Shown here: positions 2,894 to 64,000 of the stretch, piece by piece | How positions within the stretch are numbered: position 1 is the first letter of the stretch | How the letters are laid out: every line of letters begins with the position of its first letter | Source of the DNA: Eutreptiella sp. 'Long Island Sound 2002' | Taxonomy: Eukaryota; Euglenozoa; Euglenophyceae; Eutreptiales; Eutreptiaceae | Direction of reading: 5' to 3' | Assembly: GCA_964036045.1 (NCBI GenBank) | Contig: OZ038392.1 | Coordinates: 28,097,755-28,161,754 of the forward strand | Length of the DNA stretch: 64,000 nucleotides | The notes under the pieces: model-generated | Seen by the model: only the letters and a program-made list of their open reading frames with translations | Databases searched by the model: none | Told to the model about the DNA's origin: nothing | Made by a program: the position numbers and the translations under genes

Positions 2894-4954
2894 AAGTTTC
2901 AAGTGTTCGACACCGACGCCTTTGAAGCCGTATTGGGGACGGACTTCTTTGCGCAAAACGAGTGGATAAAATATTTATCCCTTCAAGAGCCCACTCACTT
3001 GTTGGTGGTGAACGAAGAGCAAGAATGGGAAGCAATACCCCTCAAGGAGACAAAGTGTCCAAGACCTACGCTCAAGACTCTGAAGAGTTTTCCGTTGGCA
3101 CTCGATAGCGAGGTGAAGCAAGAGAGTATCCTCGCTACCTTGAGCGTACACCGAACGGAGAACTACACTCTCGACACCGCCGCCAAGCGTGACGCGTTTC
3201 GAGAACTTGGCCTTAACCCGAACACGTGTAACGGCGACTTTGTCGAACTCTTTGCGTCCAAAGAGAACGCCGACGCGGAGTACTTTTGTACTCCCAAAAC
3301 CAACAACACGTGGTGGTATGACTGGGGAAAGTTGGGAGCTTGGAAGATGCTCTACGCCAACCCCCCTTTCTCAAAAATACTCCACACGTTGGTAAAAGTT
3401 TATGTGGACCAAGCTACGGTCGCGTTGGTTATTCCCGAAGGGAAGAAGTGGGAAGAAAAAGAAAAGCTATGGGGGCCTATACTCGAAAAGTTGACGGTGA
3501 CAAAGTTGCTCTTACCTGACGTTCCTCTTTACCGACTTAACCCAAAAGAAGAGGTTTTGCCAAAGCCCCGTTGGCGAACCGCTATGTACCTAGTCTCGGG
3601 GAAAAACGTGTCCTCTAACCCCATGGAAAACGTGTCTGAGGAGATAAAGAAGTTCGTGCTAAAGCACCACCGTGGGTACAGAAAAGAAGAGATGATGAAA
3701 AGGTTTCCGGACGTGGACGAGAGCAAGGAAGAGTACAAGTTCGAGACGCCTAAGTTTCAAGTCGAAGAAGTGGTTCAAGAAAGTCCGAAAGAGGCAAGAG
3801 AAACTCAAGAAGAGAGCAAAGAAACCTCCGACGAAGGCGGAAGTATATCCGAAGCTCCTTTCGAGTCGACTATACCCTTTTCGAACGACTCCTACACCAC
3901 TATGGACTACGACGACTTGGTTGCCAACCTGTTCTTGGAAGAAGTAGAACCTCTAGAGGCTCCTTCGACCCCTTCCGAAACTCCTAACCCCGAAAAACTT
4001 CTTTCACACGTTTCCGTCCCACTAGAATCGATGACGAGCGAAGGAGACGAACGTGAACTCCGTCTCCTACACGCACGCCCGAGTAAAAATTCGTTCCCTT
4101 CTTCAAAAGAAGATTTGGAAGAAACTCGTCTCCTTCTACTAAATCAAATTGACAGACTCCAAAAACTGGAGCTAAAAGAAAAATGGAAAAGCATGGTCTA
4201 CCTAGACGAGTACGACGGAGAAGATGGGACGTATTTTGATGTCGGCGAAGAATTGGTCATGCTTCACGAACTACACGAAGCATTGGAACAAGAAGTTGAA
4301 GGAGAAGAAGAAAAGAAAGAAGAAAGAAAAGACCGATTACGCCGTAAAGACATCAAGAGGCTAAGAAAGAAAGTCAAAGAAAAGAAGAAAATTGATCACC
4401 AAGAGAATCAGATGATTTTGGACCCCGAACAAGTCCTAGCCCTCAAGAAATTGACGGAGCAAGATGAAAAATCTAAGAAACAAGAATTAGGTGCGTCCAA
4501 TCTACACGCATCTGAAGACCTCAAGATTTCGCTCGACAAAATGGATGTTGATGAGAGGATCAAGAAAATCATCCTGAATTTCTCTGACATTTTTGGTCCG
4601 TTACCTCCACCCGGATCGGTGAAGAAACTCGTGACCATGGACCTAGAACTAAGAGAAGAATTTCTCAAAGATCGAGTTCGATGTCGACCGTACCCAGCAT
4701 CAAAAGATGACATGGCTGAGATTACTCGCCAAATCAAAGAATGCGTGGAGGCCAGTTTGGTTTACGAGTACAAAAAGACGGACTATCCTAAGCATTGCAG
4801 TCCATGCTTCCTGGTAGCTAAACCAGGGAGCACTGCAAAAAGATTGGTGGTCGACTACAAAAAGGTCAACCAGAAAATAAAACTGCACAGCGGTTCGTTG
4901 CCCCTGATGGAGAACACCGTGGAAACTTGCTGCTGGATGCAGATACAAAACTAA
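2894..4954 (+). pseudogene. pol: Protease end, Dam-like domain and RT N-terminus of element A
   Basis: Same frame as the protease segment. It holds the protease end (VLGTDFFAQN), then from about 3220 to 3580 a domain resembling phage Dam N6-adenine methyltransferases: LFASKENAD, then YANPPFSKI with NPPF at 3359-3370, then ALVIPEGKKW. This is the best-preserved copy of the domain in the window. An acidic, Lys/Glu-rich linker of about 300 residues follows. The RT fingers begin near 4560, with LVVDYKKVNQK and LPLMENTVE. The frame is lost near 4923 and again near 4955 by single-base indels and ends in TAA. The methyltransferase assignment is by motif only. Confidence 0.75.
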
Positions 4955-4955
4955 A

Positions 4956-7871
4956 ATGGACAAGCGGTCCGGTTTCTGGCAAATTGACCTAACGGAGCGT
5001 GCCCAAGATCTAACGGCATTCATTGCTCCGGATGGACGGGTCTACAAATGGCAGGTAATGCCATTTGGTATTGCTAACGCCCCGGCGTTGTTCCAGGAGC
5101 TGATGAATCAAATCATCGCCCTGTGTAAACGACGACCGGCCGTCCAAGAGCTCCTACAGCGTGGTGCTGTCCTGGAGGCTCACATCGACGATGTCATCCT
5201 AGGGACGAACACCATCGATGACCATCTCCTACTACTCCGAGAATTCTACGCCGTCTGTCAAGAAAATCACCTCCGCATCAAGCTGGAGAAATGCGAATTT
5301 CTCAAGACGGAAACAGACTACCTCGGATTCCACATCGGAGATGGATGGTGGAAACCGCAGGATCAAAAGATGAAGCCCCTGATGGACTTCGACCTAACGG
5401 ATTCTATGTCTAAAGCTGAAGGAGTTCAGAAAATCCGACAATTCATCGGATCCTGTAATTTTTACAGGCGGCATCTCCGAAATTTCACGGAAGCCAGCGC
5501 ACCACTAACGGATCTCATCAAGAAGGAGACTCTGTGGCGCTGGGGACCTATTGAAAAGCAAGCAATCGAAGATGTCAAGAAGAAAATCCGAGAATGCCTA
5601 GTACTTGGAGTACCCCAACGCTACGGCGAGATGATTCTAATCACAGATGCCAGTAACGTTGGAGGAGGAGGGACATTATTACAGTGGCAAAAGCTAACTA
5701 CGGATCAATGTAAAGACATTGATTATCGCCTAAGAGTTCAAGGTGTCACAAGAGAAGGATTCATGAAGTCTGACTATGACTCCCAAGAATGGCGCCTAGT
5801 TCCACTTGGCCACTGGAATTGGAAGTGGAATGCAGCCCGCTCACACTATCACACCTACGAGCAGGAGCTGTTAGCTGGAGTTCTAGTGTTGGCTAGTCAA
5901 CACAGAATCCTGGGTACCTATCCCATCACGTGGCTATGTGATCAGGATTCCGTGAAGTACTTTATGGAAAGACCACCGCCGGATGGAAAACGTCTACGAC
6001 GGTGGTGGGTCTACCTGAGCCAACTACGACTCGCTACATTCCACATCCGGGGAATTAAAAACGAACTCTGTGATTATCTATCACGGAATTGTTTTGATTC
6101 CCTGGTGGGGGCAGACACCGAGATGATGGCCCAAGAAGCTTTCGCCAAGATGGATCAACATCTCGATCTCTTTACGAGGAAAGAAAAACTCATGTCCTGG
6201 AGTATGAAAGACCTGACGGCCGATTACTCGGACATCTTGGACCAGTTGACGATTGGGAGCTCAAAGATCCTGGATGGAGTACAATGGTCCCGCACGTCAA
6301 CTCACCTATACAGGGAAGACCTCATTTGTGTCCCCAAAGACTATGAAGAAACTATGTTGGAATGGGCACACAAAATGGATGGTCACCCTGGGGTGGAGAG
6401 AACTCTTTGGTTCTTCCAGAAGTATTTCTTCGCTGGGAGTAGCGATAAATCTCTCAAGAAGATTTTATCTAAGATCATCGCTGAGTGTCCCTGTACTAAG
6501 GCTAAAGCTAACACTGCAGCGGATCGTGGTGAGGTAAGGAATCTCCCGATTCCGAACCAAATGAACTCCATCCTCTACGTGGATTTTATGGAGTTACCTA
6601 AATTCGCTGGCCATGACTTCGCCCTCCTGGTGACGGATGGACTCAGTCGCTACAGCCGAGTGTTTCCCCTTACTAAGAAGGTGGATGGTGAAGGTGTATT
6701 GAAAGAGATTTTCGAAGGATGGGTACAAGTCTACGGATTACCCAAGATTATCCATAGCGATCAAGACATCCGGTTTACCAGCCCTACTGGTTGGTACCGA
6801 AGCGTCATGAGAGCCATGGGTACGGAAGTCCAGTTCGGAACTCCTTACCTACGAACAAAGAATCCTCTATGCGAACGCCAAATCGGCTGTTTCAAAACAG
6901 TCATGAGGATTCTGATGCTGGCCGAGAAGAGCCGAAACTGGCTAAAACTAGTCCCTTATGCTATCTACTTGATGAATAATCAAGTTAGTAGCAGGACTGG
7001 TTTCACCCCTACGGAACTGTTCCTAGGGAGGCCAGGTTTCAACTTCGAATTCCCCTGCGCGAGCGAAGGAAATCCTAAAGTTGATGAATGGCTCACCGAG
7101 CAAAAACGGATCGCTGATCTATGCCGATCACTACTGGAAAAGAAAAGAAGTGAGGAGAATCGTACCAAGAACCGCAAAAGAAAAGAAGCTATCTACCAAA
7201 TTGGTGACTGGGTTCTGGTACATCACACAAGATTCAAAGTATGGCCTCGTAACACGCTGGACAGCCCTTACTTCGGACCATTTCTGGTCACGGATGTAGC
7301 TGAAGGATCCGTGTGGATCAAAACTCATCCTAAGTACGGAGGTCTGGTTGAAGTGGGTTACCCACAGCTTAAGCACTATGACGTGCTAGACGACCTCTAC
7401 GACTGGGAGGAACATCTACAAGAAAGCCTGGAAGCTGCAGCCGAAGATTTGGCCGCGGATCCTATGGATGAGGATGAAGAACTGCCGCCTATGGAGGATG
7501 ACGGTTCACTACGGATGCCCGAAAGGGACATCTCTCTCTCTAGACCTACTGTACCTACACCTACGTCCGTAGAGGCTAGACCCAAAAGAATAAGCGCTAG
7601 TGAACCCATTACGTTTACTGAGTCAGAGATGAAAAAGCAAGACTACTACTTTGTTGAAAGAATCCTCCGCCACACCTACAAACGTGGTTGGAGATTCTAT
7701 ACAAAGTGGTCTGGCTATTCTATCTCTGACTGTACCTGGGAGCCAGTGACGGCTTTCATACTCGATGACGGTAACGTCAACGAGGTTTTTGCTGATTACT
7801 GCAAATCTCAGGATTTGCGTGACATTCTGCAGTCAGCCCAAAATCAGGCCCGCAAGCGTGCTGGGAGGTGA
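4956..7871 (+). CDS. pol: RT, RNase H, integrase and chromodomain of element A
   Basis: A 971-residue frame. It carries the RT palm (SGFWQIDL, MPFGIANAPALFQ, catalytic HIDDVILG near residue 77), RNase H (ITDAS near 230; the usual DALSR box is replaced by NELCDYLSR), an integrase zinc region (HKMDGHPG...CPC) and the integrase core with Asp in YVDFM, Asp in IIHSDQD and Glu in LCERQ. A C-terminal chromodomain at about residues 895-950 has YYFVERILRHTYKRG, YTKWSGY and CTWEP. Chromodomains of chromoviral integrases steer insertion to marked chromatin. The ATG at 4956 is inside RT and is not a natural start, because the upstream part is shifted in frame. From there the frame is clean to TGA. Confidence 0.88.
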   Translation: MDKRSGFWQIDLTERAQDLTAFIAPDGRVYKWQVMPFGIANAPALFQELMNQIIALCKRRPAVQELLQRGAVLEAHIDDVILGTNTIDDHLLLLREFYAVCQENHLRIKLEKCEFLKTETDYLGFHIGDGWWKPQDQKMKPLMDFDLTDSMSKAEGVQKIRQFIGSCNFYRRHLRNFTEASAPLTDLIKKETLWRWGPIEKQAIEDVKKKIRECLVLGVPQRYGEMILITDASNVGGGGTLLQWQKLTTDQCKDIDYRLRVQGVTREGFMKSDYDSQEWRLVPLGHWNWKWNAARSHYHTYEQELLAGVLVLASQHRILGTYPITWLCDQDSVKYFMERPPPDGKRLRRWWVYLSQLRLATFHIRGIKNELCDYLSRNCFDSLVGADTEMMAQEAFAKMDQHLDLFTRKEKLMSWSMKDLTADYSDILDQLTIGSSKILDGVQWSRTSTHLYREDLICVPKDYEETMLEWAHKMDGHPGVERTLWFFQKYFFAGSSDKSLKKILSKIIAECPCTKAKANTAADRGEVRNLPIPNQMNSILYVDFMELPKFAGHDFALLVTDGLSRYSRVFPLTKKVDGEGVLKEIFEGWVQVYGLPKIIHSDQDIRFTSPTGWYRSVMRAMGTEVQFGTPYLRTKNPLCERQIGCFKTVMRILMLAEKSRNWLKLVPYAIYLMNNQVSSRTGFTPTELFLGRPGFNFEFPCASEGNPKVDEWLTEQKRIADLCRSLLEKKRSEENRTKNRKRKEAIYQIGDWVLVHHTRFKVWPRNTLDSPYFGPFLVTDVAEGSVWIKTHPKYGGLVEVGYPQLKHYDVLDDLYDWEEHLQESLEAAAEDLAADPMDEDEELPPMEDDGSLRMPERDISLSRPTVPTPTSVEARPKRISASEPITFTESEMKKQDYYFVERILRHTYKRGWRFYTKWSGYSISDCTWEPVTAFILDDGNVNEVFADYCKSQDLRDILQSAQNQARKRAGR

Positions 7872-10320: not shown

Positions 10321-10322
10321 AT

Positions 10323-11144
10323 TGAGCCCCATGGAGTATATATTTTGAACTCAGAGTGTAGTTTATTTGAACTCAGAGTGTAGTTTATTTGAACTCAGAG
10401 CAGATTCAGATCAATCATCATCATTCATCATCATCATCATTCATCATGCATCATGTGTCATGTGTCATGCATCATGTGTCATGACATGCTGGCGCCCTAG
10501 CATGTGTTTTTCACATTCCAACCCAAAACTTCACTTTCGCTCAGAACTAACACAACCACAACCCCACTCTTATAGGTTCCTAAGAAGGTTATACTATTCA
10601 TTTTTCATAACTCTTTGAATTTGGATGATCACATTTTTGACATCATGGATTGTCATGCATGTCATGCATGATCGACTCATTTTGTGAGTGATACCACACA
10701 TACTACCTTCGAAGGAGTCTAAGGCCCCTAAGGGACCTCTATTTACTCTACAACCCTTTTCCATGGTTGTCCCTACTTCTACATGTATTTTAATGCCTAT
10801 TTGGTAGGTCCCAAGCATGTTTCATGTATTGGGGGATCCCAAGAATATACCTAGGCCTAAGCCAAGCCCCAAACACAAGAGGAGAGAAGAGAGATAGATA
10901 GAGGAGAGGCGCCTGGCGGCGACACCAGGGAGCACGTGGTGCTTCCTAGGTAAGTCCTAACTAGGTGTATTTTACTACAAGAGGGATATTTGTATGGTGA
11001 GAGTGGAAGAGAGGTAAGGAGTGAACATGAGTGTAAATAATGATTGTGTTTCATAGTCCCTTTTTTGCTATGGACTAAGCTGGAAGACTACAATACTATG
11101 AGCCCATTACTTTGCTGTTGTTGAGGAGGGTGCCAAATCTAACT
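10323..11144 (+). repeat. 3' LTR of element A
   Basis: About 822 bp. The start is inferred from the polypurine tract and the end from identity with 1-430. Its left half contains a 22-bp unit repeated three times (starts 10345, 10367, 10389) and a cat/tcatca-rich stretch at 10413-10490. A tatatatttt box at about 10336-10345 may be the promoter. No TG...CA ends are evident. At 11144 the sequence passes directly into element B. Confidence 0.8.
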
Positions 11145-13993
11145 CGGTTGAACGCATCTTCGGACTCAGGGGTCCAGGCAAGCTTCTTCTTGCTCCCCTT
11201 CTGGCCATCGAACTTGCCCACTTGCAGCATCTTGTGCAGCGGCCCCGACAGTTCTGCATACATTCGGACATAGCCCGAATAGTAGTTGCAGAACCCCATG
11301 AAGGATCGGAGTTCGCTGATGGTCTGGGGTTTCTCCCAGTGGTGCAGGGACGCCAGCTTCCCAGGCATGGGACGGCATTGCCCATGACCAACCACGTGAC
11401 CCGCGAACTCCACTTCCTTCACGAAGAGTGAGGCTTTGGTGGGCTTGCACAACATGTTGTGCTTATCCAACTCGCTGAGCACTCGGCGCAGATCCTTCTC
11501 ATGCGCGTCGATGAGCTCATCCTCAGTCATGTTGTCTGTGCCGGACCCGATGATGATGTCATCCACGAAGGGATCGGCACAGTCCCGGACAGGACCGAGT
11601 AGGTCCTCCATCATGCGCTGGAAAGCGGCGTTGCCATTCTTGGCGCCCATAGGCACCACTTTCCACTGCATGGGCCCCAGCGGCGTCGACATCGCTGTGC
11701 AGGGCCTGGAGTCCGGGTGTAGCGGCATCTGGTGATAACCGTGTTTCAGGTCCAACACCGTGAAAATCCGCTTTTTCTGTTGTTTTTGGAGGATGGAGTC
11801 GATCAGGGGAAGCGAGTACGAGTCGTGCTCGGTGTGCTTGTTCAAACCTCTGTAATCAACCACCAGCCTCCAGTCGCCCTTCTCCTTCTTGGGCACGATG
11901 AAGGCTGGGCTGGCCCACTCACTGTCGGAGGGTTCGATCCATCCCCGCTCAATGAACTCGGCCAACAGCTTCTTCATGGCCTCGGCCCGATCGCCCTGAA
12001 GTTGGTACTCCCGATGACGATAGATCTTGGGGTTCGGCTTCAGCTTGATCTTAGCTGTGCCAAACCTCCCACGATCTGGAGGGTTCTTGTTGGCGACGCC
12101 ACTGAATAGCCGCGGATAGGCATTGATCAGCCTCTCCTTCAGCTCGGCGACCTTCGGGTTCTCCTGGGCCTCTTCATCCGCTTGCTTCGGTATCAATACA
12201 ACCAACCGCACTGCGGTGTAGGCCTCTTCCGGGTCCGAATCCGACTTCTCCTCGTCCGATATGCCGTCTTCATCGTCGTGGGGCATGCTTCCCACCGATA
12301 ATCTTCGGAAATTTGCGGCGTCGGGCTGGTTCTTGTCGCTATCGGCACCCATTCTTGGAAAATCCCATGTCGGTGGGTCCGACCCAACCGGACCATCGTA
12401 TTGGTCCGCGATGTGATCCATGACCCTCGCCACGAACTCGTCCTTCTCGTACTTGCCGGTGACCAACATCTTGTCATCCCACCAATGCGGAGATGTGACC
12501 ATGGCCCGCCTCTTCTTGGCTGCCACACGGTCGTGCATCCCCATCCGCATGTAGTTGACGACGTTGTCGATCTCGGCGTGGGACAGGACGTCAATGCCAT
12601 CGATTGGCTGATCCGTCCCCTCCATGGGCCCAAACATGACCTTCATGGGCACCGCCTCCACCCTACGGATGAATGCTTCATCACCCGTGGGCTGGGCTTG
12701 CGCCCCATCCACCAGGAAAGCCTTGGTACCCCACGCTTGACCCGGGGAGGGCATTGATACACCCTTGGCGTCGATGAACAACTCCTCCTCTGGCCCGAAT
12801 GACATCTCGTTCAGGGTGATGGAGTCCAGCGTCGACTTGAGACCTTCCAGCGGACATGGGGTGGACCCTATGCCGCTTATGACCAGGATCCCCTTCGCCC
12901 TATCCGCGACGATCTTCTCCACCGTACGTCTGGTGTTATCCAGGGAGCCATGCCAATACATGGGCCCCCACTCCTTCAAACCCAAATGCCTATGCCAGGC
13001 TGAGTCTCCTCGATGCCAATGCCTCCTACACTTCCGCAAAAGTAGGGCATCCCGGGAAGCGAAGACGTCCGTCTCGGGCGCTTCGGCTCCCAGCGTCTGG
13101 ATCATTCTGGCATACACCTGCGGCGCTATTCCATACTCCGTGAGCTGAACTCCACGGTCTCCTCTGGACTTGGCACCCACAGCTTGCACCGCTTGGACGA
13201 TCCGATCCTCTTCCTCAGCATTCCATTGGGATGATCCGCATGCATAGTCCGTGGACAGCCATGTGAGGCATTCATCATCCTCCCGGACCAGCGGTGCACG
13301 ATGGGGAAGGGCTCCAATGGCATTTGCCACCATGAAGTCATACCCCATGATCATATCCCAATCAGTAATGTCGGCCACATAGAAGTTCCCGGATAGAGTG
13401 CTTCTCTTCGCCAAATCAGGGCGGTTCAAGCGCTCATGGTCCCAGAATTCCATACTGATAGTGGCCTCATGGGTACCACCACCCATGATCTCTCCATTGG
13501 CCACCTTCAGGCGCACCGGTCTCCGGCTGGGCTGCAGGGATTCCTCCTTGAACAACCCTCTCCGGACCAGGCTCACCTGGGCACCCGTATCCAGCAGAAC
13601 ATCCACCACCAATTCCTCGTGTCCGCACCGTACACGCACCTTCAAGTGCAACTGCCGCTCGTCGCCATGCGGTGTATGGACGACTCTCACGGCATGCAAC
13701 TCTAGCACGTCCGGGTGCATCAGGACTTCGAGGGTATGATCACGGATGGTGTAGATCTTGGGTGGGTCTTGCCCGTCCACGAGGCTCTCCGTGGTCGCTC
13801 CTTCCTTCTTGCCACGTCCCTTGCCCACATAAACTTCCCTTGGCAGGGCGCTCCAGGGGTTGGGAGTGGCGAAACTCAGTGGTTTTGGCTCTTCTGGAGC
13901 CTTCTTCGGCACCCGATGTGCCTTCGCTTTCTCTGGGCTTCCACTGATTTTCGGAGGAGAGACCTCCGAGGTCCCACTCCCGTGGGGGCTCCT
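11145..13993 (-). pseudogene. pol: Pol of element B, truncated: protease, Dam-like relic, RT
   Basis: Open in the gag frame from the UAG at 13996-13994, with no ATG near the start, as expected for a readthrough product. Order: protease (LLDTGAQVSLV, later MIMGYDFM), then a Dam-like domain at about 13100-12770 that keeps TDVFASRD and GILVISG but has WHGSLDN where NPPF is expected, then a linker, then RT (WRLVVDYRGLN, VLDLKHGYHQMPL, catalytic FVDDIIIGS). It ends at ESEDAFNRV at the start of RNase H, where element A's LTR supplies an unrelated 3' end. The methyltransferase site is clearly lost, although the fold signature survives. Confidence 0.85.
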
Positions 13994-25076: not shown

Positions 25077-25420
25077 TGAAACCAGACCGGGTGGTCAGGA
25101 GCAGAGGTCGCAGTGGCATGGGCAGCAACATTGCTTGGCACCGAAGACATCACGATAGTGTTGACTGAATAGTATCCTGCAAACAGATATGGTACACATA
25201 GCCAATGAAATACCTGATATGCACATATGAGAAATCCACCCTATCATCCAGTAATTGATATAACTACTAAACATCCAAGAATGCCATATCCATCCCACAT
25301 CCTATGTTCCTAACAAGGAAATGGAATATGATATACCCTATCCCACATATATCCCATATATAGGGCCATATAATGCTCCCTTAGGGGTAAAATGCCAGGG
25401 TAGGGTTGTGACCTGCTTCA
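25077..25420 (-). repeat. 3' LTR of element F
   Basis: 344 bp, minus-strand ends tgaagcaggt...ctggtttca. It matches 37632-37975 except for one base (c versus a in the tatataggg[c/a]... stretch). It carries the gag ATG at 25150. Read outwards, that ATG opens a frame into the antisense of element C gag down to 24611. Confidence 0.95.
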
Positions 25421-25435
25421 CCCCCCCACTTAAAA
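25421..25435 (-). other. Polypurine tract of element F
   Basis: Minus-strand ttttaagtggggggg abuts the 3' LTR, as expected for the plus-strand primer. Confidence 0.85.
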
Positions 25436-37705: not shown

Positions 37706-37975
37706 CACGATAGTGTTGACTGAATAGTATCCTGCAAACAGATATGGTACACATAGCCAATGAAATACCTGATATGCACATATGAGAAATCCACCCTATC
37801 ATCCAGTAATTGATATAACTACTAAACATCCAAGAATGCCATATCCATCCCACATCCTATGTTCCTAACAAGGAAATGGAATATGATATACCCTATCCCA
37901 CATATATCCCATATATAGGGCAATATAATGCTCCCTTAGGGGTAAAATGCCAGGGTAGGGTTGTGACCTGCTTCA
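37632..37975 (-). repeat. 5' LTR of element F
   Basis: 344 bp, TG...CA, partner of 25077-25420. A ctatatatgggatatatg region (minus strand, about 37920-37900) offers TATA-like boxes. The gag ATG is at 37705 within it. Confidence 0.95.
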
Positions 37976-41687: not shown

Positions 41688-41723
41688 GGGAGCCACGAAA
41701 ATCGCCCCTCCCCAGGCGATTTC
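41685..41723 (+). promoter_or_regulatory. Predicted gag-pol readthrough site of element D
   Basis: UAG is followed by the spacer GGGAGCCAC and a 9-bp stem with one bulged A (41697-41706 with 41715-41723) closing the loop CCUCCCCA. Loop CUCCCC could also pair back with GGGGAG (41687-41692), which includes the last base of the stop codon. The pol frame is open from the UAG to 43244 with no early ATG. Confidence 0.65.
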
Positions 41724-43247
41724 AGGCATGATCCCCAGATTCCATCTCGACCACTACTTGATGTAGGGTCGCTTGTCTCCTCTCCCCTGGATCCGGCAGC
41801 GGATCCTTCTGTTGTAGTGGACGAGGTTGGTGTACAGTCCAAGCACAGGGCCCGTCAGTTTGTCACAAAGATGTGGGTCTCGGATCGCAAGGGCAATTTC
41901 CACCTCGCCACTTGTTTGTGTGACAATGGATCGGAGGTAAATCTCCAATCCAATTCCTTTTTGCCTGACGACTGCGTGTTTGATTCGCCTCTTCCTGTTA
42001 CCCTCGAGGGAGTTTCTGGACATTCTCTCGCAGGTGGGCAACGCGGTTGTTATATATCAACTCATTTGGTCGCTCAAGACCTTTGGGAAGAAGGTAATGT
42101 GGAGGAAGTTGTCCTTAAGGATGACTACTTCTATCGTGCCGACATAAAGTATGATCTTTACTTGGGCCATCCTTGGCTTCGCAAGAACAGGGTAGCGCCC
42201 GTAGGTCATCGGCGTTGTTTTTTGCTGGAGTCAGGTCCCTTGGAGCGTCCTGAATTTCGTTTTTTGCACGCAGGGTTTAAAAGTGCAGAAGAATTTTTGA
42301 AGCAAAAGGTTACACCAAAATTTGGCGAAGATGTCACCATTGCAGAGGTGAATGGGAGTGCCGATTACTCCCGAGAGTTAGAATGTCTTCGTAGGGACTC
42401 CCAGCCACGACGCCCTTCGCGCTGGCACTCTTCATCCTACAGAGTTGTTGACAAATGGCGCGATACAATTTGTGAATATTTTTATGAACACCATTTCTTT
42501 TGGCCACAGTATGATGCCTTTGCTAACCGCGAGAACAAGCGCTTTGACAAGCACTTTCGCGACGCTTGGACCCATAAATGGGACAAGAAGTTATGGATTA
42601 ACCCTCCGTTTCACTTAATCCAGCAGGTCATCCACAAAATCAAGCAAGATAAAACCCAGGCGATTTTAGTTGTGCCCTTGTGGGACGACAAGCCTTGGTT
42701 TCAGGAATTGCAAGACATTTGTGTAGATTACATCGAACTTCCCAGGAAGATTAAGCTGTATGCCAGGGACGACACAGGTCCCCTGCCACAGCGGCCCTGG
42801 AGTTCTCTTGCATTCCTGGTGGATGGAAAGCTTTCTGACTCTGATTCTGCTGATTCTAGTACTGATTCCTGTGTTGGGTCTGAATCTGAGGTTGAGCGTG
42901 GTACTGATGATGAATCTATTTTTTCTGATTTTTGTCCGTCAGATGCCCAAGGTGATCCAACGTCAAATGGATCCGCCTCGTCTCCCTCTTCCCCAATACG
43001 ATCTACATCCAAAAGAATCTTCAGTGCACGGGCGAAGAAAAATTTTGAATCGCGCCGCAAATTCAGAGTTTTTTATGAAAAACCCCGTGTGGAAGCTTTC
43101 ATAGATCCTTTCGAGGAGCTGGATCACGAAGACAATCTCTGGAATGTCGACACTCGACCCACCTATCTTCAAGAGGCAGTTGATACGGACCTTTTTAGGG
43201 ACATCCGTAAGAAGATTCTTCCTGCCAAGGCCGAAGAAGTCGCATAA
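41688..43247 (+). CDS. pol: Protease and Dam-like domain of element D
   Basis: Gag frame continued through the UAG. The protease has LCDNGSEVNL, GVSGHSLAGG and YDLYLGHPWL. The Dam-like domain at about 42480-42830 has YDAFANRENKRF, then WINPPFHLI with NPPF at 42600-42611, then AILVVPLW and PQRPWSSLAFLVDGK. An acidic Ser/Asp-rich linker follows. The frame hits TAA at 43245-43247 (GCA TAA GTT), although the same frame continues into RT and element C has no stop at this place. It is therefore probably a nonsense mutation. Confidence 0.85.
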   Translation, partial: GSHENRPSPGDFRHDPQIPSRPLLDVGSLVSSPLDPAADPSVVVDEVGVQSKHRARQFVTKMWVSDRKGNFHLATCLCDNGSEVNLQSNSFLPDDCVFDSPLPVTLEGVSGHSLAGGQRGCYISTHLVAQDLWEEGNVEEVVLKDDYFYRADIKYDLYLGHPWLRKNRVAPVGHRRCFLLESGPLERPEFRFLHAGFKSAEEFLKQKVTPKFGEDVTIAEVNGSADYSRELECLRRDSQPRRPSRWHSSSYRVVDKWRDTICEYFYEHHFFWPQYDAFANRENKRFDKHFRDAWTHKWDKKLWINPPFHLIQQVIHKIKQDKTQAILVVPLWDDKPWFQELQDICVDYIELPRKIKLYARDDTGPLPQRPWSSLAFLVDGKLSDSDSADSSTDSCVGSESEVERGTDDESIFSDFCPSDAQGDPTSNGSASSPSSPIRSTSKRIFSARAKKNFESRRKFRVFYEKPRVEAFIDPFEELDHEDNLWNVDTRPTYLQEAVDTDLFRDIRKKILPAKAEEVA

Positions 43248-46200
43248 GTTTTTTCGACAGTAATTCCTGGCGATCAGGTGGACACTGAGTTGTGTTCCAA
43301 GAAAAGAAACAAGATTTTTGAGGAACGGAAGGACACAACCCTTTCGGGGAAGTTGATCAAAGACCCCCCTGTCCGTGGGCAGTTCGGTGAAGCCTTCATC
43401 GAGCTTCGTGAAGGTTACAAGGCGAAGAAACAGCGTCCTTATGAGAACCATGGACACAAACATGAGATACTCAGAAAAGTAATCGAGAGAAATCTCAGGG
43501 AATTTGGTTGGCTTGAGGGTTGTATGACCAGCGAATGGTGCTGTGCACCCTTCACAGTCCCGAAGCCGCCGCCTGCAGACCAGAACACTATTGATGGTTG
43601 GCCAATGGTTGTTGATTTTCGCAACCTCAACGCCGAAACCAAGGCGGATTCACACCCCCTGCCTCTCATTGAGGAGGAAATCGCCAAGAGGGCAAGAGGT
43701 CGTTTGTTTTCTGTGCTGGATCTCCGTCACGGCTTTCACCAAATGCCGTTGAGGAAGGACAGCCGACCTCTCACCTGTATGTGCACGCCATGTGGCCCGG
43801 TCCAGTGGACGGTCATGCCCATGGGCCTGAAGAACGCCCCTTCGTTTTTTCAAAGAATGATGCAGGATGTGCTTTTTACAGCTCATCCTGAGCTTCGTGC
43901 CTTCGTGAGTGTGTACATAGATGACATAATCATCGCGACAGAGGGGGAGGGACTGACCGAAGCCGAGCTGGTGGCCCTACATGAAAAGCAGCTGAACCAG
44001 GTTTTGGACATTCTTGACGCCAATCAGCTGATTTGTGGGCCAAAGAAGGGAAAACTATTTTTAAAATCAGTCGAATTTTGTGGTTCTCTCCTTGAGAATG
44101 GCACCCGACGACCCAGTCCAGGGAAGCTCGTCGCTATTCAGAAGTGGAAGCGCCCTGAGACGATCACGGAATTGAGAGGATTCCTGGGTTGTTGCAATTT
44201 TTACCACACTTTTGTGCCGAATTATGCCAAATTTGCTGCCCCCCTCACTGAATTATTGAAGGTAGGGAGAGATGCGGGCAAGGCAGGTTCAAAGGTTCGT
44301 GTCAAGTGGACTGACGAGTGCGAGGAGGCCTTCCATCACTTGAAGGCGGCCCTCTGCGAAGTCGCCACGTTGCATGTGCCGAAATTCGACCGACCCTTCT
44401 ACATAAGAACCGACGCTTCTAGGTACGCGATCGGAGCTGTCCTTCAACAGGTTGATGAAGCCACAGGGGATCATTACCCTCTTGTATTTTGGTCGCGGAA
44501 GCTAGCCCCACGCCAAATGCAATGGTCGCCGCGTGAGCAAGAAACATATGCCATAATCTGTGCGCTGAAAAAGTATCAATCGTGGGTTGGTACCAATCGA
44601 GTCGAGGTCCTGACGGATCATCGATCTCTGGAGTATTGGGCCACCGAACACATTGATACTGTCGCGAGCCCAGCTGGTCGACGGGCCAGATGGCACGAAT
44701 TTCTCAGTCTGTTTGACCTCCATGTGTCGTATTTGCCTGGAAAACACAACACGGTAGCGGATGCTCTGAGCCGATGGGCTTACCCCGCTTCAGAGGGGCT
44801 GCAAAGTACCAACATCCATGGTACGGAGCAGGACCGCCACGTCGTAATCGAGTGGGATCAGGAAGAAAAAAAGCTCATTCGACGTGAATGCATGCAATGC
44901 ACTGTTAAACAGCACGCATGCCCGTGTCACGATATCACGGCCTTTTCAGATCCGGCGCATGCTCATGAGATCTGCACCAAAACACTGAAAGTCGTGGAGA
45001 AAGTCACCGATCCCTCCTCAGGGAGTGTGAAACGGTTTGACTATACCCGACGTGTAAGTGGATTTCGGTTGATCCAGGGCATTAAGCGTCGAGATCCGGC
45101 CAAAACTCCACCCCTGCCGAAAGATTCCCTTATCATCCGTGACTGGACGAATGATTATCTGCATGATTCCATGTTTAAAGAGGTCTTTGCGAATCTCAAA
45201 TCCAAAGATGCTCACAAAGATGGAATTTTTTCGGAATATTCGTTGGATGGGGGGAAGCTGTGGATGGAGGGTAAATTGTGCGTACCAGACGCCCTGGCCC
45301 CCCGAGTGTTAAACTGGTGGCACAAATGGGAGTCCCCCCACGCACATGGCCGTAGAATATGGTCGATGATTAAACATAGGTTGTTCGGCTCAAGGCTATA
45401 TACTCATTGCATGAAAGTAGCCGCCGGATGTGCCCAATGTGCTGTCGCGACGCCACCCAGCGCGAAGAAGCACGGCCATCTGAGGCCACATCCTATTCCG
45501 GAGCGCCTTCTTAACAGAGTCACCAGTGATTTCTTCTATCTCGGTGAACTCGATGACGAAGAGTGCCATTGGACGAAAAAAAAAGTCAATGGTGTGCTCC
45601 TTATTCAGTGCCGTCATTCAGGCTACATTCAGGTGTTGCCTTGCAACATCGAGTCAATGACTGGCAAGGCTGCCGCCAAATGGTGCGCGCAGACCTGGAT
45701 GGGAGGTTGGGACGTCCCATCCGAGGTGGTTACGGACTCAGGCAAAGAGTACACCTCCGAATGGTGGAGAGAATTATGTGCTCGCCTTGGAATCCACCAC
45801 CTGAGATGTGAAATCCACTCGCATCCAGCGCTGCCTGGCGAAAGAGCCGGCCGCTCTATTATAAATATGCTTCGTAAGGAGCTCGCGAGTGAGAAAGATT
45901 TCCATTGGCTTGAAGTTCTCTTCGCATTGCTTCGCCGTTACCACAACACGCCTTTGTACCATGGCCTTTCTCCAAATGAAATTGTCTTTGGACGAAAGAA
46001 GTGTTGGTGGAACATGCCGTTGAATAATCCTCGCCCTTGTAAAGATGCTTCGTTGTTTTTGGACGAAATCCAACGAGCAGAAAAAACTGTCTCGAAATTA
46101 ATCGATAAGCATCAAGCTGACTGGCTTTGGGTCCAGAATCAAGGCCGAAAAAACCCCCACAATTTTGAAGTCGATGATCGAGTTTGGCTTCGAAAATCCG

Positions 46201-46892
46201 AAACCACCCTGGACGGAGATGATAAGCTTCTTCCCTTGTGGGAGGGGCCATTCGCTGTTACAGCGCGTCTAGGTGAGAACAGGTGGAGGATTCGTGTGGA
46301 TGTCAGCAGGGAAATTGACGTTTCGGGCGATCGCCTCAAGAGAGAGATCCCCTCCCCCAAGGATCGGGTTAAACCCCTTTTTTGGACTTCGAAATTTTTG
46401 TCCGATCGGGTCATCGAAGGGGGGAAGTACGAACTCAAGAGGATTTTAGAAGCAAGACGTGACGGAAAGGGCGAATGGGAATTTCTATGTGAGTGGAGGG
46501 GCTTTGATTCCAGTCACAACAACTGGGAACCAGCCCATTCTTTTGTCCATGGGTACACCAAGGGGTTCATCGACTTCCTCAAGAAGCACCCCGAAATTGG
46601 CGTACTCCTGACAGACTGTCTGTCGAAACCAGACAGACAGGTGGAGAGCGACGGAAAAAGACCTGTGGTGAATCGAGATCCAGCCTTTTACGGCCCTCAG
46701 CAGCCACATTCCAGGGCTGATCCGTCGATCCCCCCTCCTGCGGTCAGGCCAGCCCAGGAGCCAAATGAAGACCAAGCTTCGAGTTCGGCCGCTGATTTGC
46801 AGCGCCCAAGCCGTACGAGGGCCCCACCAGACAGGTTGGTGGTCACATGTATTCGTGCTTGGCCGAATTCAGGGAGACCCGTCGTGACTTGA
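43248..46892 (+). CDS. pol: RT, RNase H, integrase and chromodomain of element D
   Basis: About 1,214 residues in the frame of the preceding segment. The first start-like codon is GTG 43278, so translation depends on passing the TAA at 43245. RT has VDFRNLN, VLDLRHGFHQMPL and catalytic YIDDIIIAT. RNase H has RTDASRYAIGAVL, LTDHRSLEYW and ADALSRWAYP. The integrase has a zinc region ending CAQC and a core with Asp in TSDFF, Asp in VTDSGKEY and Glu in PGERAG. The chromodomain has YELKRILEARRDGK, CEWRGFD and WEPAHSF. A Pro/Ser-rich tail of about 90 residues follows the chromodomain. Confidence 0.92.
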   Translation, partial: VFSTVIPGDQVDTELCSKKRNKIFEERKDTTLSGKLIKDPPVRGQFGEAFIELREGYKAKKQRPYENHGHKHEILRKVIERNLREFGWLEGCMTSEWCCAPFTVPKPPPADQNTIDGWPMVVDFRNLNAETKADSHPLPLIEEEIAKRARGRLFSVLDLRHGFHQMPLRKDSRPLTCMCTPCGPVQWTVMPMGLKNAPSFFQRMMQDVLFTAHPELRAFVSVYIDDIIIATEGEGLTEAELVALHEKQLNQVLDILDANQLICGPKKGKLFLKSVEFCGSLLENGTRRPSPGKLVAIQKWKRPETITELRGFLGCCNFYHTFVPNYAKFAAPLTELLKVGRDAGKAGSKVRVKWTDECEEAFHHLKAALCEVATLHVPKFDRPFYIRTDASRYAIGAVLQQVDEATGDHYPLVFWSRKLAPRQMQWSPREQETYAIICALKKYQSWVGTNRVEVLTDHRSLEYWATEHIDTVASPAGRRARWHEFLSLFDLHVSYLPGKHNTVADALSRWAYPASEGLQSTNIHGTEQDRHVVIEWDQEEKKLIRRECMQCTVKQHACPCHDITAFSDPAHAHEICTKTLKVVEKVTDPSSGSVKRFDYTRRVSGFRLIQGIKRRDPAKTPPLPKDSLIIRDWTNDYLHDSMFKEVFANLKSKDAHKDGIFSEYSLDGGKLWMEGKLCVPDALAPRVLNWWHKWESPHAHGRRIWSMIKHRLFGSRLYTHCMKVAAGCAQCAVATPPSAKKHGHLRPHPIPERLLNRVTSDFFYLGELDDEECHWTKKKVNGVLLIQCRHSGYIQVLPCNIESMTGKAAAKWCAQTWMGGWDVPSEVVTDSGKEYTSEWWRELCARLGIHHLRCEIHSHPALPGERAGRSIINMLRKELASEKDFHWLEVLFALLRRYHNTPLYHGLSPNEIVFGRKKCWWNMPLNNPRPCKDASLFLDEIQRAEKTVSKLIDKHQADWLWVQNQGRKNPHNFEVDDRVWLRKSETTLDGDDKLLPLWEGPFAVTARLGENRWRIRVDVSREIDVSGDRLKREIPSPKDRVKPLFWTSKFLSDRVIEGGKYELKRILEARRDGKGEWEFLCEWRGFDSSHNNWEPAHSFVHGYTKGFIDFLKKHPEIGVLLTDCLSKPDRQVESDGKRPVVNRDPAFYGPQQPHSRADPSIPPPAVRPAQEPNEDQASSSAADLQRPSRTRAPPDRLVVTCIRAWPNSGRPVVT

Positions 46893-48534: not shown

Positions 48535-49067
48535 TGTAAGTGCGGCTAACCCCCATCTGCTCAGATTTTAGCAGATCTGCCCCAGTTTGGCTACATTTTG
48601 GTCATTTTCTCTGCTTCGGCGGAATCGCCGCCCCGCAGCTCAGTCTCAGGATCAGACCTATATATTTCTGATGTGCCGGATCTGATTCCGCGGTCCATTC
48701 ATCGTAAATCCGTCGCGTTCCGATCATTTACCTGGAATCGCCAATTGCCGCTGATGCGCGCCTGAAGCCAAATCAGCCAAATAATTTTTCACAATCGGAT
48801 TTATATAAATCTTTTCAGATAGATACGGACACTCAGATGTACTTAGGATAATCCGCATCAATTTTCTTCATAGACTGGGATTTTCTGCCGGATAACAATC
48901 AGCATGGATCTTGCTTCCGTTGTTGCTGCCCTCGCCTCCGTTGGTGTCCGTGTATCCGGTTCTACCCCCAACAGCAGCGTTCAGGTCGACTCCTCGCGTG
49001 CCTGCCCCACTGGTCTTGCCGGCCCCGAGCCCTCCGGCACCTTCCACGACCCAGGGCAGCACTTTCA
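48535..49067 (+). repeat. 3' LTR of element D
   Basis: 533 bp with about four substitutions against 38281-38813. Its internal gag ATG at 48904 opens a frame that leaves the LTR and reads into element C's protease up to 49530. Confidence 0.96.
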
Positions 49068-49072
49068 TTTAT

Positions 49073-49400
49073 TCTTGGGTCAACCATGGCTTCACGCTCA
49101 TCGTGTGTCGCCCATGGGACACAGGACATGCTTCCTCCAGGATCCGTCGACCAGCGACCCGTCCGACTTGTATTATCTGCACCCATATACCAAGAGTATC
49201 AACCAATTCCAGGAACGAAATAAGCTACATATTCAGCAAGATGGGCAGGAATGGACAGGGAATCAAGAAGAATTGGACGAAGGAAAGGTGGAATCATTGA
49301 ACTGCAAGAATTGGAAGTCAGTTTGCTATCGTGTAGTCGACAAATGGCGGGACATTCTGGTGGATTATTTCGAAGGGAACCACAATTTCGTCCTCAAGTT
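49073..49400 (+). pseudogene. pol: Protease end of element C and linker, to a frameshift
   Basis: Resumes element C pol after D with FLGQPWLHAHR. It continues through a linker to YRVVDKWRDILVDYFEGNHNF. Near 49390 similarity to element D moves to the next frame (PQVDAFANKKNKRF), so one base has been gained or lost. Confidence 0.8.
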
Positions 49401-52400
49401 GATGCCTTTGCAAACAAGAAGAATAAAAGATTTCCGAAGTTCTACGACGATGCCTGGAGTGAGGACTGGTCTGAACCACTTTGGATCAATCTGCCCTTCG
49501 ACGTTTTTCCTCGTGTGGTGCAGAAACTGAAGCAATCCGGCGCAAACGCGATTTTAATTGTCCCCAACTGGCCAAAACAATCTTGGTTCAAGGACATTAT
49601 GGACATTTCAATCGACATTGTCGAGCTACCTCACAAGGGAGTGAAGCTGTATTGCGAAGACAATGGCAAGCCTTTGCCACAGCGTTCGTGGAGCACGTTG
49701 GCGTGCTTAGTTGACGGGAATCTGGGAGATTATTGGCAAGATGACAGTGAAATGGGAACAGAAGAGGTCATATCAAATTCCTCAAGAATCGACGAAATTG
49801 AAGTGGATCGAGACGATCGAGAGCGGAATCCCGACATATCGTCGCGGAAGGAGGGAAGGACAATCGGCGTCCCTCAAGAGAACGCCTCCATCCATTCCAA
49901 TTCGTCCCCATCAGACAAGAATCAAGCCCAAAATGTCAAGATTTCAAGCAAGAATGATGACAAATTTCCAAGATTTTCACCTGAATTGACAGGAATGCCG
50001 CTGAATTCGTCCGACCATCCCTTCAAGACATTCGTGGACCTGCTTCATTGGTGGGATCCCACGGAGGAGCGAGCTCAGGTGAGCTTCATCCGCCAACAAT
50101 GCGACGAAGAAGTTTGGAATGAAGTGGCCAAGAATATGAGACCACGACCAACAATTCGCAAATTGGTGGACATAATGTCGGTGATTAAATGTGGGAATCA
50201 GGTCGACGGAGACAAGATATCTGCAAGAAGGGACGCAGTGTTCGAAGATTATAAAGATGACGTGCTGAGTGGGAAGTTGTGGAAAAACCCCCCAATTCGA
50301 TGTGAAAATGGGGAAGCCAAGATTGAGATAATCCAAGGCTCAAAGGTGCACAAACAACGTCCATTCTACCTTCACGGCACCAAAGCAGATGCCCTGCGAA
50401 AGATTATTGAGCGCAATCTCTATGAGTTCGGTTGGTTGGAGGGCTGCATGAGTTCTGAGTGGTGTTCAGCACCATTTACTGTGCCAAAACCCCCACCTGC
50501 TGACCAATCCAGCATAGATGCTTGGCGTCTAGTGGTGGATTACAGAGCCCTGAATGCCGCCACGGTACCTGACGCGCATCCCCTTCCTTTAATCGAGAAG
50601 GAGATCGCCGCGAGAGCCAAAGGTAAGCTCTTTGCTGTGTTGGATTTGCGCCATGGCTTTCACCAAATGCCACTTGGAAAGGAGGATAGGCATTTGATGG
50701 CAATGTGCACGCCCTGTGGCACTGTCCAGTGGACTGTACTGCCGATGGGTCTGAAGATTGCGCCGTCGATGTTCCAGAAGATGATGGAGACTATTTTATT
50801 TCAGAAGCACAAGTCTCTGGATTTACAAGAATTCTGCAGCATCTACATTGACGACCTTCTGATTGCCACGCCGTTGGAAAAAAACTTTGATGAGTGCCTG
50901 AAGTTGCACGAAGAACAAGTCCGAAAAGTTCTCGAAGTCCTTCGACAAGAGAAGCTCGTGTGTGGACCCAAGAAGGGCAAAATGTTCCTCCAGAGTGTGG
51001 AATTTTGTGGCTCTGTCTTGGAAGATGGGACAAGAAGACCGGCCCCAGGGAAAATGGCTGCCCTACAGCTCTGGGAAAGGCCTAAAACCATCACGCAGCT
51101 TCGTGCCTTTTTAGGCTGCTGCAATTATTACCACGAGTTCCTTCCCCTCTACGCCAAGTTCTCTGGTCCATTGACAGAGTTACTCAAGGTTGGCAAAATA
51201 GAAGGAAAGAAGGGATCTCAAGTCAAGCTCAAGTGGACGCCAGAATGTGAAGAGGCCTTTACTGGTCTCAAGGAAGCACTGGCAAATGTGGTTACATTAA
51301 AGACTCCGTGGTTGGATGGAAGACCTTTTTATATTCGTACAGACGTCAGTCGTTACGCCATTGGTGCTACGATCGAACAAGTCGATGACGAAGGTCACCA
51401 TCATCCTCTGGCCTTCTGGTCTCGCAAGCTTACAACAAGACAGCGAAATTGGAGTCCAAGGGAACAAGAAGCCTATGCAATCCTTTGTGCCTTACGGCGT
51501 TATGAAGGTTGGATCTTGGGCCATCGCGTTGAGGTACTGACTGACCACAAGTCACTGGAGAGCTGGAGGACAGAACATGTGGATACCCCTGGTGGACCAG
51601 CTGGGAGGAGAGGCCGTTGGCATGAAACTCTCAGCAGATTTGACCTCCATGTGACTTACATTCCAGGACGCTACAATACAGTGGCGGACGCCCTGAGTCG
51701 CTGGGCCTACCCAGCCTCAGAGGCTTACTCTGAAGTGAGTTTTCATGGGACAGCGACGGATAAAGCGGAAGTGATCGAGTTTGATAAGGAGGAACAAGCA
51801 CTGATCAAGAAACATTGTCTCCAATGTTCGATTGAAAATCCGATGAAGGTGGAATTGGTCAGATGCAAGGAGATTACCAAGGCAGATCAGACTGCAGGAG
51901 TTAACTCTGACTCTGAGTCGGCGCTGCCACTCCTTAATGTGTTTCCAGTGACAAGATCCAAGGCGAAATCCACGCTCCCTCTACAACAAAAGGACAAGGA
52001 AACTTCCTTCCTCTATGTGGATTGGACGAAGATGTACAAGGAGGACAGGTTCTTTGGGTCTGTATACCACAAGTTGAAAGGGGACAAGCCTTACGACTCT
52101 GAAGAGACGTCTGATTTCAAAATCCAAGGCGACAAGTTATTTTGGCAAGGACGGATTTGTGTTCCTGATTGTCTAATTGACCAATATGTCAAACATTGGC
52201 ATCGGAATGAGACAGCCCACACACATTCTCATGTTCTGGAGCAGGAGCTACGACACAGATTGTACACACGGGACCTCAAGAGTGCCTGTGAACGAGTGGC
52301 CAAAGGATGCAAGCAATGTCAGGCGACCATCCCCAAGAATCAACAGGCAGAAGGACTACTGAAGGGATTACCAATTCCTGAGAGGTTGTTCGACAAGGTG

Positions 52401-53576
52401 ACGGCGGATGTCTTCGAGTTGGGACAAATCCAAGAGGAATGTCTCTACACGAGGAAGCCAATTGATGGGGTTTTGTTAATTCAAGACCGCCACAGTGGCT
52501 ACATCCAGGTCCTCCCTTGCAACACGAAGCATCTCACCTCTGAAATGGCTGCCAAGTGGACTGCAAGTCAGTGGATGAGTAACTGGGATGTTCCCAGTGA
52601 AATTCTGACGGACAGTGGGAAGGAGTTTATTGAGACTTGGTGGGAGAACATGTGTGCTCTATTGGGAGTTCATCATCTTCGTGCCCGAGTCTACCACCAT
52701 CGAGCCCTCCCTGCTGAACGCGCTGGAAGAATTCTTATCAACCTTCTGAGAAAATTCCTGGCGACTGAAAAGGACTACAATTGGTTGGAGACAATTTACT
52801 GTGTCTTGAGGAGATACCATCGTACCAAGAATTACACTGGATTAAGTCCGAATGAGCTTGTTTTTGGTGGTGAGAAGATGGGTCCAGGACCAGTGATGTA
52901 TCATCCAAGGCAGTGCTACGACGCCTCACAATGGTTTGAGAGGATCAAGGATTTAGAGTCCAAGTGGATCCAAGCAAAACTGGAGAGTCAAGCAGATTGG
53001 TTGCATTTCAAAAATAAATCGAGAACGCAAGGAAAACCCTTCGAGAAAGGCCAGCAAGTTTGGCTTTGTAAGTCAGACGAGACCCTGAAGGACGACAACA
53101 AATTGTTACCTTTGTGGGATGGCCCATTCCAAGTCAGTGGTCAACTAAGTGAGACTACATTCAACATTGAAATTGAGCCAGGCAGGCATCAAGAAGTACA
53201 TCGAGACCGTTTGAAGGCCGAAGTACCCTGCCCCAAGGGAAGGTTCAAGCCTCTCTATTGGACTTCGAAGTACCTAAGCGACAGGAAGATGGTCACCAGC
53301 AGTTTCGAGTTGGAGAAGATCCTTGATTACAAGAAAAATGCTCGAAACAAGTGGTACTTTCTGTGCAGATGGAAAGGATTCGGTCCAGAAGAAGACAAAT
53401 GGGAGCCAGCTTCAAGCTTTATCCATGGGTATACGGACACTTTCATCAAGTTCCTGAAGAAACACCCTGAGATTGACCGTGAGCTCTCGCTGATCAAGGA
53501 TTGTGTCACCAAGGAAGACTTACAAGCACAAGAAGAAGCTCCAATCGTGGCAGAATCCATTCGAGACAAGATCTGA
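49390..53576 (+). CDS. pol: Dam-like domain, RT, RNase H, integrase and chromodomain of element C
   Basis: About 1,395 residues open to TGA 53576. The Dam-like domain runs to about 49700: VDAFANKKNKRF, then WINLPFDVF with NLPF at 49488-49499 (Pro to Leu in motif IV), then AILIVPNWPKQSW. RT has VDYRALN, VLDLRHGFHQMPL and catalytic YIDDLLIAT. RNase H has RTDVSRYAIGA, with Val where Ala is usual, and ADALSRWAYP. The integrase core has Asp in TADVF, Asp in LTDSGKEF and Glu in PAERAG. The chromodomain has FELEKILDYKKNARN, CRWKGFGPEEDKWEP. The frame upstream of 49390 is a shadow. Confidence 0.92.
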
Positions 53577-62707: not shown

Positions 62708-62780
62708 CGGAGCCCCTGCAGCCAAGGGCCCCAGCTAGGGCGGTCGCAGGATGGTGACGTGGGAAGCGCCGAACCATCCC
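62705..62780 (+). promoter_or_regulatory. Predicted gag-pol readthrough site of element G
   Basis: UAG is followed by CGGAGCC, then CCUGC...GCAGG pairing that closes a structured stretch containing ggggccc-type pairings. The context fits UAG-N-G-R-[A/U]-G-C-C. The pol frame is open beyond it. Confidence 0.55.
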
Positions 62781-64000
62781 AGTCGGGAGTCGATAAGCAC
62801 AAGGGGACTGCCGCGGGCGGAAGGCCCGGTCCGGCGCCCAGTCGCGGAGGCGGGGTGAGGGCAAGTGAAGGCACGAACCCTTGCACCCGTCCGTCCTTCG
62901 CGACCAAGAATGTGTTTGATGTACTACAGGATCTATCCGAGAGTATCGGAGGATCACCCGGACCGCAGCTGGATGCTGCAGATGGGCAGCCTGAGCCCAT
63001 TCTCCACGACCTGCACCAGTCGCTTGTGGAGCTTCTGGAACGGCCGGAGATCCTGAGTTTGCACGCCGGGCGCCGTGTCGGTCGCGAGCGGCAGTTGCAT
63101 CTTAAGGTCCGTGCCTTATGCGGGGAAGTGGAAAAGGTTTTCGACGTGTTGGTCGACACGGGAGCTCAGGTCAGCTTGGTCAAGGCTGGCCTACTTCCAC
63201 CAGAGTGTCTGACCGACAGTCGGAAACCTGTCAGGCTGAAGGTGGCGAACGGCCAGTACATGGTGGGAGGCACGAAGGAAGCGGCCATTGGGCTGCAGTT
63301 CGTGAACCATCGGGAGCTGAGCCGCCCAGACCTCGGCAAGGAAATCCTCCTGCACGGTCGCTTCTACGAGGCCGAGATGGACTGGGACATGATCGTCGGA
63401 TACGACTTCATGATGGAGACGGACTCCGGCGTTCTCCCGGCCCAGGCCTCCATGACCCTGTACCAGGACGACCAACTCTCGTGGCTTTCGTCACCTGAGC
63501 ACCATGTGGAATGCCAATGGATCCACCCCGAACGCAATCAGCTCGAAGTGGCCGCGCTGGACACTGAGCCCACTGGGCCAGCAAACCAGGAGTACGGCGT
63601 AAGGCCGGAAGTGGCGAACCGAGTGGTCGCGGACCTGGGAGCTTCGGATCTGGCCCTGGATGCGTTCTCTTCAGGAACCTCCGCCCATCTTCGGGTATGT
63701 GAGAAGTACTGGAGCGCACAGGACTCCGCGTGGAAGAAGCACTGGGGTCCGCATCAAGGATTGATGTGGATCCATTGCCCCCGTTGGGACATTCCAGGAG
63801 CGATAGCGAAGATTCGCAAGGACCGCTCCAAGGCAGTGCTGGTTGTTCCTATGGGATGCACCGAGGAGGAAAGTACCCGACATTGGGTAGCCTCATTGAC
63901 CAACATGACCTTAAACAAGGTCGTCCTACCGGCTGGAGAGAGTGTCTATCAGGACGCTAAGGGACAGCCCATGCCACCCCAGAGATGGCCAACGGAATTC
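62708..64000 (+). CDS. pol: Pol of element G, N-terminal part: protease and Dam-like relic
   Basis: I read this frame through by hand from the UAG to the last base and found no stop. There is no ATG near its start, as expected for readthrough. The protease has LVDTGAQVSLV near 63150, RLKVANGQYMVGG and WDMIVGYDFM, closely matching element B. The Dam-like domain begins near 63610 with LDAFSSG, then HCPRWDI where NPPF is expected, then AVLVVPMG and QPMPPQRW at the edge. Motif IV is lost as in B, while the flanking pattern is kept. RT should begin just outside the window. Confidence 0.85.

Follow-up and report, generated by a model that had tools for sequence, protein, structure and literature searches.

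Methyltransferase domains have been described in several kinds of retroelements. The Pfam Dam profile detects a domain in the Pol of DIRS elements, according to one report (PMC3783388), and the function of the DIRS methyltransferase domain was called unknown in 2011 in another (PMC3266345); the literature searched here yielded no later answer. Retrotransposons with captured cytosine DNA methyltransferases (DNMTs) are represented by SymbioLINE-Dnmt and SymbioDIRS-Dnmt3 from Symbiodinium and by the charophyte Gypsy element KnitGypsy-Dnmt3 (PMC5890265). A further paper connects DAM with DIRS, and DCM with both Ty3 and DIRS, while one loose sentence in it takes together the Ty3 and DIRS elements that encode DAM and DCM (PMC6338049). 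Here, six Ty3-type elements (A, B, C, D, F and G) were analyzed in a stretch of 64,000 nucleotides (the window; contig OZ038392.1 of assembly GCA_964036045.1, positions 28,097,755 to 28,161,754) from the 2.28 Gb genome of Eutreptiella sp. 'Long Island Sound 2002'. Judged from sequence comparisons, the domain that lies between protease and reverse transcriptase (RT) in all six elements is a Dam-type N6-adenine methyltransferase domain. To our knowledge, no such domain is known to belong regularly to the Pol of chromoviruses.

A homologous segment of about 140-165 residues was found between protease and RT in each of the six elements, the in-frame part in C being shorter. For the leave-one-out analysis, a profile built from the other copies was searched against 906 six-frame fragments of the window, each of at least 40 aa. 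Every held-out copy was recovered, with E-values of 2.5e-9 for A (3245-3604), 8.5e-16 for F, 2.9e-16 for B, 3.2e-21 for G, 9.5e-29 for C and 2.4e-38 for D. The best other match in these searches was 0.75, apart from the stretch 49303-49398, which we read as the upstream part of the C domain in another frame. A preliminary description had placed a Dam-like segment at this position in all six elements and had likened that of A to phage Dams; the placement was confirmed for every one of the six.

Several independent comparisons identified the segment as Dam-type. Pfam Dam (PF05869, curated cut-off 28.1 bits) was the sole family matching it in A, C, D and G, with E-values from 1.1e-4 to 0.021; among relatives, P0047 (16.0 bits) and P0059 (15.4 bits) were matched and the C-type P0009 was not. 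PHROG 111 (DNA methyltransferase) matched D (0.0039) and P0009 (4.3e-6), with no match in the other four proteins searched together with them. When 50,697 phage records were searched by tblastn, the P0009 domain matched 657 records, the best being an annotated dam methylase (E 2e-4), and 19 of the 20 matches listed were annotated as methylase or methyltransferase. D matched 435 records and A 43, with best E-values of about 1 and of 3, and none of these matches was significant; 17 and 13 of the 20 listed, respectively, carried such an annotation, the remainder being hypothetical or without annotation. F matched five phage records, none named methylase. Alignment of the six element rows (C as P0009) with five phage Dams by hhalign gave a probability of 96.6% and an E-value of 6.4e-10 over 122 columns, with the element NPPF placed over the phage NPPY. 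When the 906 fragments were scored with a profile from 30 non-redundant phage Dams, the four best were D (21.9 bits), C (17.5 bits), G (15.5 bits) and A (15.2 bits); the one after them reached 6.9 bits, F scored 3.2 bits and B was not listed. In B and F, where direct Dam matches are absent, the assignment as Dam rests on homology to the other elements.

The predicted structure of the D domain (pLDDT 82.6), for which the alignment included phage Dam rows, has a class I (Rossmann-like) methyltransferase fold. Its best matches were methyltransferases, many of them adenine-acting, with phage Dam models reaching down to E 3.5e-7. The Dam relationship proposed earlier was thus upheld on D by both fold and profile, the profile searches having matched Dam and no other domain.

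The domain is widespread in the same genome. Pfam Dam exceeded its cut-off with E <= 1e-3 at no fewer than 93 places (150 of 3814 candidates scored), the best at 45.6 bits. From this list 28 loci were read, 27 of them distinct (L091 is L108) and 20 picked for variety, and all 28 were matched by both the element profile and the phage-Dam profile; the H-type loci match the element and RT profiles partly by construction, because these profiles hold a row of L089. In 24 of the 28 loci (23 of the 27 distinct ones), an RT in the same orientation lay 567-1234 bp downstream, the exceptions being three loci without RT and one with an inverted RT. The loci added families H, I and J (J as one locus, L109) and the C-type relative L096. 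Dam (36.4 bits) and RT share one open reading frame (ORF) in L097. In L109, protease and Dam (29.1 bits) share one ORF, followed by RT-RNase H and then by rve; in L096, Dam (28.9 bits) occurs with RT and weak integrase matches, with a chromodomain in the next ORF.

The history of the domain was compared with that of RT. In the Dam tree, a branch (100/100) separated all nine element families from the 30 phage Dams, and A was grouped with J (98/96) and H with I (97/89). The RT tree likewise grouped A with J (100/100) and H with I (97/99), and also B with G (94/96), leaving C, D and F ungrouped. The identity matrices of RT and Dam were congruent over nine families (Mantel r 0.574; 59 of 20,000 permutations) and over seven (92 of 5040 permutations). 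Since the RTs of A and J are only 24-31% identical to those of the other seven families, the capture appears to be old, and one old capture of the domain into Ty3 is the likeliest history suggested by these comparisons. In family H, the ratio of nonsynonymous to synonymous substitution rates (dN/dS) of L089 against L103 was 0.12 in Dam, 0.43 in the linker after Dam, 0.39 in RT and 0.30 on the protease side; against L113 the values, in the same order, were 0.11, 0.44, 0.21 and 0.16. Comparison with four closer H copies gave 0.11-0.26 in Dam. Several H copies carry stops or frame changes, those within Dam being one stop in L113 and a frame change in L107. At the level of codon substitution, the Dam domain of family H shows purifying selection. 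The idea of an ancestral capture kept in diverged families, advanced in the preliminary description, is supported by both the tree and the low dN/dS in H.

Transfer from DIRS into Ty3, or in the reverse direction, instead of directly from phage, is in our judgment only slightly disfavored. The same Pfam profile detects the DIRS Pol domain (PMC3783388), so that a retroelement donor is at hand, and the element Dams sit apart from the 30 phage Dams in the tree. On the other hand, the DIRS domain follows RT-RNase H (PMC3266345), whereas the Ty3 domain precedes RT.

The catalytic motif IV of Dam is (D/N/S)PP(Y/F/W), which was also seen in the aligned phage Dam rows. The uniform Dam-like pattern suggested in the preliminary description goes too far, because this motif is intact in A and D (NPPF) alone among the window copies; C reads NLPF, F has a doubtful CPPY, and the motif is lost in G (HCPR) and B (HGSL). 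The C-type relatives P0009 and L096 read NPPF, as do six of the seven loci of family I (NPPC in L101), and family J has NPPW (L109). NPP(F/W) is therefore kept in five of the nine families, namely A, D, I, J and the intact C relatives. Family H mostly has NAPF, with NTPF in L092 and DAPF in L104. Among 241 listed homologues, the domain was found at E <= 1e-3 in 218 and was absent in 23; in these listed homologues, HGSL occurs in 86 of 103 of B type, HCPR in 15 of 17 of G type, and CPPY in 56 of 97 of F type (a gap at the motif in 32 of 97), and the single C type has NPPF. The protein clusters of B and G comprise as many as 4545 and 2833 members, respectively; motif loss is thus fixed in these successful families and does not reflect the decay of single copies. 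KsgA/Erm enzymes work with N-x-P-Y, and by this precedent H may be active. By the same kind of comparison, activity of F is doubtful, and from their motifs catalytic activity is not expected in B and G.

We consider it probable that a single uptake of a phage-type Dam was followed by inheritance within Pol together with RT, with catalysis in the NPP families and non-catalytic retention elsewhere. A phage-type Dam (N6-adenine) domain would have been captured once by an ancestral Ty3 Pol, between protease and RT, and passed on with RT in nine or more families of this genome. In the NPP(F/W) families, the domain would most likely act as an adenine methyltransferase within the virus-like particle. 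Its substrate would be the element's own nucleic acid, with new complementary DNA (cDNA) the likeliest, as the domain is produced adjacent to RT. In the families without motif IV (B, G and probably F), it would be retained in a presumably non-catalytic role, such as nucleic-acid holding or RT positioning. Catalysis, its substrate and its benefit are what we infer, as is the rooting of the tree as a single capture. A wider proposal is made tentatively, namely that in a large Ty3 clade an ancient, once-captured cDNA-methylating enzyme is standard in Pol and some of the most abundant families keep it as a pseudo-enzyme.

A number of results weigh against this explanation. None of the six window copies reached the Pfam Dam cut-off (best 22.4 bits, in A), and the B and F segments had no Pfam Dam match at all. 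The D model was derived with phage Dam rows in its alignment, and the B model, built without them, gave no decisive fold match. In the Dam tree, which covers phage and element Dams and no DIRS or bacterial Dams, F, B, A, J and G have long branches, and B and G do not resolve as a pair; RT and Dam showed no significant Spearman correlation when seven families were compared (p 0.18). Two of the six window copies have an intact motif IV, and its loss in B and G indicates that catalysis is not a general requirement. As for selection, L089 against L107 gave a dN/dS of 0.35 in Dam and 0.28 in RT, and the choice of H loci by the Dam profile biases them toward conserved copies. Identity between B and G is 36% in Dam, 29% in the linker, 68% in RT and 62% in protease, and B is 53% identical to P0114 in Dam and 58% in the linker, and 72% and 73%, respectively, to P0085. 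Because Dam is barely or not at all above the linker in identity, the motif-less families seem to be under weak constraint there.

A Dam-derived fold that serves every family structurally or by binding nucleic acid, for example by tethering protease to RT, with the NPP motifs as relics, is unlikely but deserves weight. It would account for the size of the B and G clusters despite the loss of motif IV, and for the columns that are invariant in the six rows, which are a Y, the F of motif I, a K and the C-terminal P and W, and not the catalytic N. However, a relic would hardly be durable enough to leave NPP(F/W) in five of nine families including the divergent A and J, and the H domain (N-x-P-F) has a dN/dS of only 0.11-0.12 between subfamilies, a value to which the bias of selection by Dam profile applies. 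Methylation of RNA, either the element transcript or host RNA, instead of cDNA by the active families is improbable. Chance likeness of motifs in a fast-evolving spacer, to which the low domain identity between families (18-54%, C represented by P0009) might point, is contradicted by the hhalign result, the phage-Dam profile, the leave-one-out searches and the same-genome loci over the Pfam cut-off, and can be dismissed.

Features of the six Ty3-type elements in the window (LTR, long terminal repeat)
Feature	Position	Strand	Remarks
A left LTR	1..430	+	pair 10715-11144, 99.5% identical
A right LTR	10715..11144	+	pair of 1-430
A ORF: protease end, Dam-like domain, RT start	2894..4954	+	
A Dam-like domain	3122..3607	+	motif I ELFA, motif IV NPPF; Pfam Dam 1.1e-4
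A ORF: RT, RNase H, integrase, chromodomain	4908..7871	+	Pfam
B Pol ORF: protease, Dam-like domain, RT	11096..13993	-	Pfam
B Dam-like domain	12695..13180	-	motif I DVFA kept, motif IV changed to HGSL; held-out profile match
C ORF: Dam-like domain, RT, RNase H, integrase, chromodomain	49224..53576	+	Pfam; 5' part of element missing
C Dam-like domain	~49389..49724	+	NLPF; Pfam Dam 0.0022
D left LTR	38281..38814	+	pair 48535-49068, 99.3% identical
D right LTR	48535..49068	+	pair of 38281-38814
D ORF: protease-side region (by eye, no Pfam protease), Dam-like domain	41688..43247	+	
D Dam-like domain	42408..42833	+	DAFA, NPPF; Pfam Dam 8.4e-4
D ORF: RT, RNase H, integrase, chromodomain	43248..46892	+	Pfam
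F LTR	25077..25422	-	pair 37632-37977, 99.7% identical
F LTR	37632..37977	-	pair of 25077-25422
F ORF: RT, RNase H, integrase, chromodomain	28577..31672	-	Pfam
F ORF: protease-side region (by eye, no Pfam protease), Dam-like domain, RT start	31446..33554	-	
F Dam-like domain	32274..32723	-	DAFN, CPPY; held-out profile match
G ORF: protease and Dam-like domain, open at window end	62708..64000	+	
G Dam-like domain, cut by window end	63560..64000	+	DAFS kept, motif IV changed to HCPR; Pfam Dam 0.021

The elements have the features of Ty3 chromoviruses, with LTRs (pairs in A, D and F), the order protease, RT, RNase H and integrase, and a chromodomain. RT, RNase H, rve integrase and chromodomain were matched by Pfam in that order in A, C, D and F, and RT was matched in B. 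For G, whose RT falls beyond the window, the assessment of RT relied on the relatives P0047 and P0050; rve and Chromo are carried by P0050 (G type) and P0123 (B type). Pfam protease matches were obtained for B and G and for family J (L109), and the protease side of the remaining elements was assigned by eye. From the near-identical LTR pairs, we read the insertions of A, F and D as recent; LTR pairs were looked for in B and C and none was found.

In A (4908-4954) and F (31446-31672), the Pol frame shifts within RT, resulting in overlapping ORFs; the frame-change sites differ by eye, so independent decay seems likelier than programmed frameshifting. C starts behind the right LTR of D (49068-49398), with its 5' part absent and the start of Dam in another frame. 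If the LTRs end in CA, an apparent target-site duplication of 5 bp flanks D (38276-38280 / 49068-49072) and one of 4 bp flanks F (25073-25076 / 37976-37979), such short duplications being expected for a DDE integrase. An inverted repeat pair of 359 nt (18847-19205 / 55120-55478; 75% complementary, 36 kb apart) possibly represents two related repeats. Tandem units of about 60 bp at 21084-21360 lie just before a long gag-like ORF (21702-24905), for which no Pfam match over the cut-off was found.

The literature searched gave no account of Ty3 elements with a Dam domain placed between their protease and RT; Dam domains are already known in DIRS, and the Ty3 placement appears to be new in that we found no report of it. 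The families with and without the catalytic motif would provide a natural contrast for the marking of retroelement cDNA by N6-methyladenine (6mA). The domain would also be a possible source of eukaryotic 6mA besides the MT-A70 enzymes. If the wider, tentative proposal made above is true, the catalytic and non-catalytic roles of one domain could be separated in one genome.

Compared with phage Dam (PF05869, PHROG 111), the element domain shares the profile, the block order D-x-A/F-A, NPP[YF], VP and GKP near the end and, for D, the predicted fold. Phage Dam is a stand-alone gene with about 17-24% identity to D, whereas the domain here is fused to Pol and lacks motif IV in some families. The order RT-RNase H-integrase-chromodomain is that of chromoviruses, to which the elements add the domain between protease and RT. 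The elements with cytosine DNMTs are alike in that a DNA methyltransferase was captured by a retroelement, once in a Gypsy Pol, and differ in their enzymes, which methylate C5 of cytosine and have no structural relation to the Dam-like kind (PMC5890265). DIRS elements share a domain within Pol that Pfam Dam can detect (PMC3783388); they have a tyrosine recombinase, no protease or DDE integrase, and the methyltransferase after RT-RNase H (PMC3783388, PMC3266345). The elements described here, unlike DIRS, have LTRs, a chromodomain and an rve integrase (A, C, D, F and J), and no Phage_integrase match was found among the Pfam-scanned ORFs of the window elements and of L096, L097 and L109. The Dam-like domain is thereby extended to LTR elements with a DDE integrase, at a different place in Pol from that in DIRS, namely before RT.
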